32,085 nucleotides of DNA from an uncultured Bacilli bacterium (GTDB taxonomy: Bacteria; Bacillota_I; Bacilli_A; RF39; UBA660), in assembly GCA_947626035.1 (NCBI GenBank), contig CANQQR010000009.1:1-32085 (forward strand). Reading direction: 5' to 3'. Numbering within the stretch: position 1 is the stretch's first letter; each line of letters opens with the position of its first letter. The notes below the pieces were generated by a model, which did not search any database, had not been told where the DNA came from, and was given only the letters and a program-made list of their open reading frames with translations. A program made the position numbers and the translations under genes. Positions 29,017-32,085 of this stretch are shown here, piece by piece.

Positions 29017-29709
29017 ATGATAGAAAAGATAATTAGATTTTTTAAAAAGTTTGCATTTTTTACTACTAGTTATAGTATTAATGTGTTTCCGCCTCCACTT
29101 AGTAAGGAAGAGGAAGATAAGTATATTTTTCTTTCTTGTAATGGAGATAAGGAAGCAAGAAGTATTTTGATTGAGCATAATTTGAGGCTCGTTGCGCATA
29201 TTGTTAAGAAGTTTGAGAATTTTAATGAGAGTGCGGATGATTTGATAAGTATTGGGACTATTGGATTAATAAAGGGGGTTGATACTTATAATCCTAATAA
29301 GCCTGTTAAACTTATTACTTATGCAGCTAAGTGTATAGAAAACGAGATTCTTATGTATATTAGACAGAATAAGAAGAGTCAGTTAAATGTTAGTTTGAAT
29401 GATTCTATTGGGTATGATAAGGATGGGAATGAGATTACTCTTGCTGATGTTATTAAGGATGATTATGTAGATTCTAGTGAGGTTGTTAATTTAAAAGATA
29501 ATGTTACTCTTTTAAAAAAGTATATTGATGTTTTAAATAAGAGAGAGAAAGATATTATTATTAGAAGGTATGGGCTGCTTAATAAAAAGGAAGAGACTCA
29601 ACGGGAGATTGCAAAGGAGCTTAATATTAGTAGAAGTTATGTTTCTAGGATTGAAAAAAGGGCTTTAGTGAAGTTAATGAGGGAATTTATTAAGCATAAT
29701 AATGTATAA
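29017..29709 (+). CDS. sigK: Sporulation sigma factor SigK with apparent pro-sequence
   Basis: LIEHNLRLVAHIVKKFEN, EDLISIGTIGLIKG-type region 2, QREIAKELNISRSYVSRIEKRAL region 4; hydrophobic N-terminus ending TTSYSINVFPPPLS like pro-SigK. Confidence 0.92.
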   Translation: MIEKIIRFFKKFAFFTTSYSINVFPPPLSKEEEDKYIFLSCNGDKEARSILIEHNLRLVAHIVKKFENFNESADDLISIGTIGLIKGVDTYNPNKPVKLITYAAKCIENEILMYIRQNKKSQLNVSLNDSIGYDKDGNEITLADVIKDDYVDSSEVVNLKDNVTLLKKYIDVLNKREKDIIIRRYGLLNKKEETQREIAKELNISRSYVSRIEKRALVKLMREFIKHNNV

Positions 29710-29746: not shown

Positions 29747-29995
29747 TTATTCAAAGAATTTGTTTAAAGGTACACCTAGTACTTCACTTATTTTGTATAG
29801 ATTATATATGCTTATGCCTTGACTAACTTTTGTGCTTTCCATGCTTCCTATAAGTGATACACTCACACCTATTTTTTTAGCTAGGTCACTTTGTGTCATT
29901 GAGTGTTTATTAGCATTATATAAGATTCTATACTTCTTTATATTTTTACCGACTATATTATTTACTATTTTTTCATTTTTCATTTTAACCCTCAT
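29747..29995 (-). CDS. XRE-family HTH regulator (small)
   Basis: MTQSDLAKKIGVSVSLIGSMESTKVSQGISIYNLYKISEVLGV. Confidence 0.9.
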   Translation of the reverse strand: MRVKMKNEKIVNNIVGKNIKKYRILYNANKHSMTQSDLAKKIGVSVSLIGSMESTKVSQGISIYNLYKISEVLGVPLNKFFE

Positions 29996-30010: not shown

Positions 30011-30060
30011 AATGGGCCAGACTGAACTCACTACTTTTCAATTTTAAAGTCCGGCCCATT
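30011..30060. repeat. GC-rich inverted repeat downstream of the surface protein gene
   Basis: AATGGGCC(a)GACT ... AGTC(c)GGCCCATT; 8 bp, 1 mismatch, 4 bp, 24-nt loop. Confidence 0.85.
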
Positions 30061-30070
30061 TATTATTTAT

Positions 30071-32085
30071 TTAGTTTTCTTTTGCATCGCATGAACTATC
30101 TGAAGTGACTTCATATGGGTCACCAGCGGTACCGCTACCAGATAACTGAACACAAGATTTCAGAGAAATTACTGGACGCACGACGCGATTCGACGCGTTG
30201 TCGGACGAGTAGTGCAAGTAACCAGCGAAGCTAGAACCGCCCACAAAAAACACGGACGCGTTGTTACTTTTGAAGTGACACGGACTCATTGTCCACCACC
30301 AGTTCAATCCGGTTGAGCTTCCTCCGGAAGCGTTCCTATAGTAGTAAGCACTATCGTTGTTAGTTCCATAGAAGCCTCCTGCAAACACTACTTCGTCTGC
30401 GGTCATTAAACCTATTGGCTTTGTTAGAGCACCGTTACCACCAGAAGCTTGACTTACACTAAACATATCTTTCTTTCTCTCTGCGTCAGGTGAGTCAAAA
30501 TTTGCTTTTCCATCTCCACCTACGCCACATTTGAATGATGGATGATTTTTTGTATTATCTGCTTTATTTGTTACGAATTTTCTATAGCCATTATAATACA
30601 TTGTTCCACTTGATGCCCATTCTGATGTTTTTTCTCCATATGTGCTTCTATCATTACAATATATTGCTGTTTTACTTATGTATTTATCATAACTTTGTAA
30701 GTTACTTGTATACCATTTTTCTAATTCTGTCATTATTGGACTTGGTGTTGCATTTCCTCTTATTGCAGATAATGTACTTCCTGTACTATATTTAAAACCT
30801 ACATACGCTGTGTTATTATAGTTACTTGCATTGTATGCAAATCTTCCATTACTTCCAATACTACCACTATTCATTATATAAGCATCTGACCCTGCCGTAC
30901 TAGTCCCCGCATATAAGAGCCTTATACTTTCGTCTTCGTTTAATCTTATTATTCTCCAGTATTTATTCGCAAAATGTACCCAGTTATCGGTAGCATTTCC
31001 TGCATAATAATATACTGTCTTTCCACCCTCAGTATAATTTCCATCTTCATAATATTTAGAAGAAGCTGATACTACTGTTCCAAAACTTCCATCTGCCCTC
31101 TTTCCTACATTCTTAAATATTTCATCAAATTTTGCTAAAGCCTTACTCTTAGCTAATACTGCATTAAATGTACAAGTTACATCACTTGATATTCCTGATA
31201 CTGTTAATGTGGAATTATTACTGTTATAACTTGCTGTTGCTCCTAGACATGATGGATTAACACCATCAAATGTATAACCATCATTTGCTTTTACTCCTGT
31301 AAATGTTGTTGAACCATTTGTTAGTGTACTAGTATAATGCGTTGCTCCACCTATTCCATTTCCTACTGTTAATACTACTTTCGGTAATAATTTTCCTGTT
31401 AATGTACATGTATTATCTCTATTTATTTCTGTTACTTTTACTGTGTTATTACTTCCAAATGCTGCTTTTGCTCCATTATCGCATGTTATTTTTTGACTTT
31501 CAAATGTATAATTTGTTTTTGGTGTTACTCCTTCAAATGTTAATTCTCCTCCTGTTAATGCATTTGATACCTTTGTGTCACTTCCTGTTCCATTTCCTAC
31601 TGTTAATTTTACTGTTGGTAGTTTTCCTATTTTAAATGTACATACTGTTTCTCCTGTTATTCCATTTACTGTTACTGTTGGCAAATTATATGTTGCTTTT
31701 GCATTTCCTGTACATGTTACTTCTTTAAATTGATAACCTGACTTTACTGTTACATTAAATGTTGTTGTTCCTATTCTTCCTATTACTTTATTGGTTGGTG
31801 TTCCTAGGTTTGCTCCATCTGTTGGTTCTGCAACTATTGATACTGAATAACCTCTTTTAAAGTCTACTGTACATGTTGATGGCCCTTGTTTTCCATTTGT
31901 TACTTCTATATTTTCATTCTTCCATGTTGCTTCTACCCCATTTGTACATTTCACACTACTAAATATATATTCATCTACTGATGGTAATGTTGGTTGTTCT
32001 ATTCCTTCTATTGTGTATTTTACTAGTATTACTTTCCCTTTACTATATATTCTATATGGGTCTTCTTTTGTTCCACTTCCTGTTA
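30071..32085 (-). CDS. Large surface protein with Cys-containing repeats and C-terminal CLec/DGR-variable-protein-like domain (5' end outside window)
   Basis: Open frame continues past 31954 to the window edge (GSGTKEDPYRIYSKGKVILVKYTIEG...); repeats LPTVKLTVGNGTG / LPKVVLTVGNGIG; C-term WWWTMSP...NRVVRPVISLKS. Confidence 0.85.
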   Translation of the reverse strand, partial: TGSGTKEDPYRIYSKGKVILVKYTIEGIEQPTLPSVDEYIFSSVKCTNGVEATWKNENIEVTNGKQGPSTCTVDFKRGYSVSIVAEPTDGANLGTPTNKVIGRIGTTTFNVTVKSGYQFKEVTCTGNAKATYNLPTVTVNGITGETVCTFKIGKLPTVKLTVGNGTGSDTKVSNALTGGELTFEGVTPKTNYTFESQKITCDNGAKAAFGSNNTVKVTEINRDNTCTLTGKLLPKVVLTVGNGIGGATHYTSTLTNGSTTFTGVKANDGYTFDGVNPSCLGATASYNSNNSTLTVSGISSDVTCTFNAVLAKSKALAKFDEIFKNVGKRADGSFGTVVSASSKYYEDGNYTEGGKTVYYYAGNATDNWVHFANKYWRIIRLNEDESIRLLYAGTSTAGSDAYIMNSGSIGSNGRFAYNASNYNNTAYVGFKYSTGSTLSAIRGNATPSPIMTELEKWYTSNLQSYDKYISKTAIYCNDRSTYGEKTSEWASSGTMYYNGYRKFVTNKADNTKNHPSFKCGVGGDGKANFDSPDAERKKDMFSVSQASGGNGALTKPIGLMTADEVVFAGGFYGTNNDSAYYYRNASGGSSTGLNWWWTMSPCHFKSNNASVFFVGGSSFAGYLHYSSDNASNRVVRPVISLKSCVQLSGSGTAGDPYEVTSDSSCDAKEN

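Follow-up and report, generated by a model that had tools for sequence, protein, structure and literature searches.

The GC-rich block close to where an AT-rich gene ends (3′) in the DNA analyzed here (32,085 nucleotides, hereafter the window) is, with high confidence, the variable region (VR) of a chromosomal diversity-generating retroelement (DGR) in which a single reverse transcriptase (RT)-Avd pair is served by many templates. The window is contig C9 of a MAG from an uncultured Bacilli bacterium (G000; 1.43 Mb, 77 contigs, 92.5% complete, 3.4% contamination). The initial annotation had read the block as a DGR target, and this reading is supported by the presence in the genome of an RT, Avd, noncoding template repeats (TRs) and several sister VRs whose mismatches are nearly confined to template adenines. 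The features of the window considered here are the following:

30071 to 32083, minus strand: target gene, with 670 aa readable; repeats at the N-terminus precede a variable domain at the C-terminus
30162 to 30287, minus strand: VR, AGTCCG...TTTCTCT, its extent set by likeness to the TR cores
30162 to 30184, minus strand: invariant 3′ anchor GTCGTGCGTCCAGTAATTTCTCT, shared unchanged by the six TRs and by many VRs
30013 to 30058, minus strand: inverted repeat TGGGCCGGACT...AGTCTGGCCCA, directly past the stop codon of the target gene
29747 to 29983, minus strand: small gene past this hairpin, by position the counterpart of the XRE-type regulator on contig C71

The 5′ end of the target gene is missing, as its ORF runs past the contig end, and close paralogs elsewhere in the genome show one or both ends; the protein translation given earlier does correspond to the C-terminus of this ORF. 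A composition count confirmed the GC-rich block, with 53.3% GC over 30181-30300 and 51.1% over 30160-30345, against 33.1% for the rest of the gene and 29.3% for the window. The NNC-rich codons attributed to the block were also recovered: third codon positions in the VR are 44% C, 25% G, 28% T and 3% A, compared with 5% C, 6% G, 31% T and 58% A in the gene upstream of it. A GC jump from 33% to 53% could also be expected of a horizontally acquired or composition-shifted domain without hypermutation, but the noncoding cassettes contain the same GC-rich segment and the sister VRs differ from them at adenines, so that we rejected this explanation and give it virtually no credence. Since about 35 VRs related to that of the window are found in its own genome, on large and small contigs, the block is not a chance feature. 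The VR lies at the 3′ end of the target gene and carries an invariant 3′ anchor, as expected of a DGR member; past this anchor, a possible counterpart of an IMH, the TR reads on TTTAATGAAT and the VR reads on GAAATCT. AlphaFold models of the target were of low confidence, and a C-type lectin (or Ig-like) fold is therefore not shown; a search of PDB sequences gave no match to the target either.

The inverted repeat past the target gene is possibly a cruciform or the leader of the next gene. The same hairpin, followed by a small XRE-type gene, recurs after targets on C71, C12, C17, C33, C35 and C18, and the regulator downstream of the C71 target matches HTH_19 (2.3e-14). Convergent with the target-gene unit, a 230-aa ORF (29017-29709, plus strand) appears by eye to be of sigma-factor type. 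Two VR domains within one ORF were observed in the target genes of L031, L032, L028 and L035.

The initial annotation had placed both the template and the RT outside the window, and an RT and templates were found there. The genome has one matching DGR-type RT gene, on C71, identified by PF00078 (1.7e-19, genome search) and a PHROG RT profile (5e-75), with the motifs IGNMTSQ and YMDD and the reverse transcriptase 8ub7 as its best PDB match. Avd lies directly upstream; its matches to bAvd (1.2e-6) and NF033474 (5.6e-8) fall below the curated cut-offs, and it also matches the PHROG "Avd protein of DGR" (2.3e-10). An ORF with a MutS_I domain (2.5e-6) adjoins the RT on the downstream side. This setting is conserved and chromosomal in the relatives L127-L131, uncultured Bacilli MAGs of which some are named for rabbit gut samples, where Avd, RT and MutS_I are followed by ABC-transporter-type and pseudouridine-synthase-type genes, both named from their sequences by eye. 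The expectation of one template beside the RT did not hold, as the AAC-rich noncoding templates form an array on another contig, C45. A point against our explanation is that C45 and C71 are both short, in a MAG with 3.4% contamination. Three cassettes lie directly upstream of Avd in L131, and none was found near the RT in the other four loci within the stretches examined. A second, unrelated DGR was observed in the same genome at L024 (G000:C1:96000-101500), with a 386-aa RT, a TR-like segment of its own (CNVNNNGNANYNSATN) and a 260-aa ORF that contains a VR-like segment; it is probably phage-borne.

Contig C45 carries six tandem noncoding cassettes, spaced 351-569 bp apart, which follow the 3′ end of another target gene. 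Each consists of a leader, the TR as an AAC-rich core, and a conserved tail ~80-100 nt long, and a TATAAT- or TACAAT-like box precedes the leader in five of the six. The cores differ in length by multiples of a codon, and their best-matching VRs tend to vary in length with them. The template contig also has a T-box-like leader (L039 94-277, minus strand; 56.6 bits, below the gathering score).

The adenine test compared VRs with all six TRs in codon alignments. Changes at template adenines were scored leniently, which favors A mismatches, and the Fisher p values include no correction for selecting the best template among the six. The VR of C71 differs from TR3 at 16/36 A sites and 0/87 non-A sites (p 1.5e-10), and that of C65 from the same template at 19/36 and 1/87 (p 1.5e-11). 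Similar patterns were obtained for C39 against TR2 (15/35 A, 2/85 non-A; p 6e-8), C54 against TR4 (16/39 A, 3/87 non-A, all three in the last codon; p 2.6e-7) and C24 against TR6 (18/35 A, 4/88 non-A; p 1e-8). Zero to four non-A changes in ~87 sites cannot, however, stem from the choice of template. A template of the kind that the initial annotation had proposed to search for in the rest of the genome, with differences nearly confined to adenines, was found for several sister VRs, but not for the VR of the window itself, whose best match of the six (TR6, C45:6764) shows 18/35 A and 12/88 non-A mismatches (p 2.7e-5, again uncorrected for best of six). In this comparison its mismatches are enriched at template adenines and not confined to them.

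No exact template for the window VR was present in the assembly among the six C45 TRs compared, and of all cassettes retrieved from the genus, none beats those of its own genome. A mosaic of the six templates was also tried and rejected, as 12, 10, 9 and 8 non-A mismatches were left with zero, one, two and three switches. One explanation is that the window VR is a decayed relic, a former DGR target that is no longer written, which the 12 non-A mismatches would fit, as would the several other VRs in the genome that are still further from all templates. We consider this possible but rather unlikely, as this VR has kept its 3′ anchor and a template-like codon composition. In addition, a long first part and GCAGGTCAG are common to the VRs of C12 and C3:19218 and are features of a template absent from the assembly, so templates are likely missing and that of the window VR may be among them. 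We therefore think that this VR was probably written from a template missing in the fragmented assembly, or has drifted since. Most VRs of the related genomes G001 and G006 are left unexplained by the cassettes found there, and this, like the non-A mismatches of the window VR, counts against our explanation.

Across 30 cassettes from nine genomes, the leader pairs with the end of the tail in a 10-bp helix, and the tail also contains a stem-loop. Standard pairs fill 99.4% of the cells in these helices, and double changes occupy 62 cells versus 21.8 expected from shuffles (0/500 shuffles), while controls with slid partners brought pairing down to 40-52%. The helices were first spotted by eye in the same sequences, so the slid control partly favors them, and we regard the double changes as the stronger evidence. 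RNAalifold predicted an extra helix, between the invariant TR end UUUCUCU and AGAGAAA in the tail. Judged from sequence alone, the cassettes resemble individual RNA genes whose leader and tail are structured and covary; an Rfam search of the cassette contig and the 3′ part of the window returned no match to the cassette tail.

Silent cassette arrays serve antigenic variation in vlsE and pilS, and the arrays described here share with them variable cores within conserved flanks, here sometimes near an expressed target. The cassettes could thus be silent donors, an archive of former VRs used in RecA-type gene conversion, with the RT uninvolved in most changes. Near-verbatim copying does occur, as one G001 VR is a single mismatch in 131 from a cassette, and the direction of copying is therefore not always clear. 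However, the mismatches of many pairs are confined to template adenines, and covariation supports an RNA structure in the cassettes; gene conversion requires neither feature, and neither of them, like the RT, is shared with vlsE and pilS. The genome also encodes the RT and Avd of a DGR, and a classic DGR is present in an outgroup, so that we find this explanation unlikely and retain that of a DGR with many templates.

Templates may also be rewritten from one another. The closest cassettes within arrays are 93-97% identical in their flanks and mostly 70-80% in their cores, and core columns with a majority of A depart about twice as often as the other core columns (p 4e-4 in G001, 0.007 in G000 and 1.5e-6 in G006), a modest column-wise A excess; no consistent excess at A columns was found in the flanks. 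An adjacent pair of G001 cassettes has 11 core mismatches, 10 of them at an A of one member (p 1.8e-5). This is one of 28 directed pairs, among which no analogous bias for C, G or T was detected, and over all cassettes it is the only close pair with a clear-cut pairwise A bias.

Targets are also found in prophages. Contigs C7 and C10 carry large phage-type ORFs, with an integrase-like ORF on C7 (ORF lists read by eye), and each has a ~210-aa gene in which a 90-bp VR stretch matches TR5. The mismatches are 9/24 and 13/24 at A, respectively, with 0/66 at non-A sites in each. A gene of the same kind in G001:C3 compares with a G001 cassette at 14/35 A and 2/89 non-A, and two prophage-type genes of G006 fit less well (12/22 A, 6/71 non-A; 8/21 A, 5/70 non-A). 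The prophage gene had no match among IMG/VR or INPHARED phages, and the cassette tail had none in IMG/VR.

With the tail model, G006 has 71 cassettes on six contigs, mostly 250-400 bp apart, and G001 has 30. The RT is present in six of nine genus genomes, one copy each, and the three without it are less complete. When the tail covariance model was run on 145 family genomes, six cassettes were found in G000, 28 in G001 and one in each of three other genera, and none in the remaining 140 genomes; this run used stricter filters, and weak matches may be lost. RT relatives occur in 46/145 genomes of the family. An outgroup genome, G091 (L190), from another genus of the family, has a DGR with a homologous RT (55% identity), Avd, the target domain and adenine-biased mismatches (19/28 A, 2/80 non-A), but as a compact classic locus with a lone TR between the target gene and Avd. 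The simplest account, which remains an inference, is that a single-TR ancestor gave rise to the arrays within this genus.

DGRs have been described with one or few templates, and a large survey of DGR variation has reportedly been published in Nucleic Acids Research. The system shares with the classic DGR of BPP-1 type an RT, Avd, an AAC-rich noncoding TR, a VR at the 3′ end of the target, adenine-confined mismatches and a fixed 3′ anchor, but differs in its tandem arrays of six to ~70 TRs, every one of which has a leader and a structured tail to itself, in templates mostly away from the RT, in its dozens of targets and in its prophage targets. Some known DGRs likewise have several TRs or many targets remote from the RT: 271 of 948 DGRs had multiple VRs, 79.9% of those with a single TR, one had two TRs and six VRs, and one atypical locus had six TRs and few A substitutions (PMC6642488, BMC Genomics 2019), and remote targets have been recorded in cyanobacteria (PMC7517822) and Trichodesmium (PMC8867640). 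In the open literature, with preprints outside the scope, we found neither template-to-template rewriting nor any ordered array in which tens of templates share an RNA structure, and a prior description of template arrays cannot be excluded.

We propose that each cassette is transcribed separately, and that two helices, one joining leader and tail and the other pairing the TR 3′ end with the tail, would hold the RNA for RT-Avd. The RT would then copy the TR, placing random bases opposite adenines, and the cDNA would replace the VR of any gene with a matching 3′ anchor, the putative targets being dozens of surface-type proteins, including that of the window, and a small prophage gene. The same process appears to rewrite templates too, so that arrays may grow by duplication and diversify. 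Whether the genus as a whole maintains a self-renewing library of mutagenic RNA templates, grown by tandem duplication, rewritten mutually at adenines and directed at host surface genes and at RT-less prophage genes with an acquired landing sequence, we judge to be an even question. The covarying leader-tail structure in 30 cassettes is a ready test set for the RNA parts that a DGR needs. If one RT does draw on tens of structured template RNAs, nature would offer a multiplexed system of hypermutation, opening the questions of how a template is chosen and how it avoids losing its adenines, and the prophage targets would show phages drawing on a diversification machine of their host.
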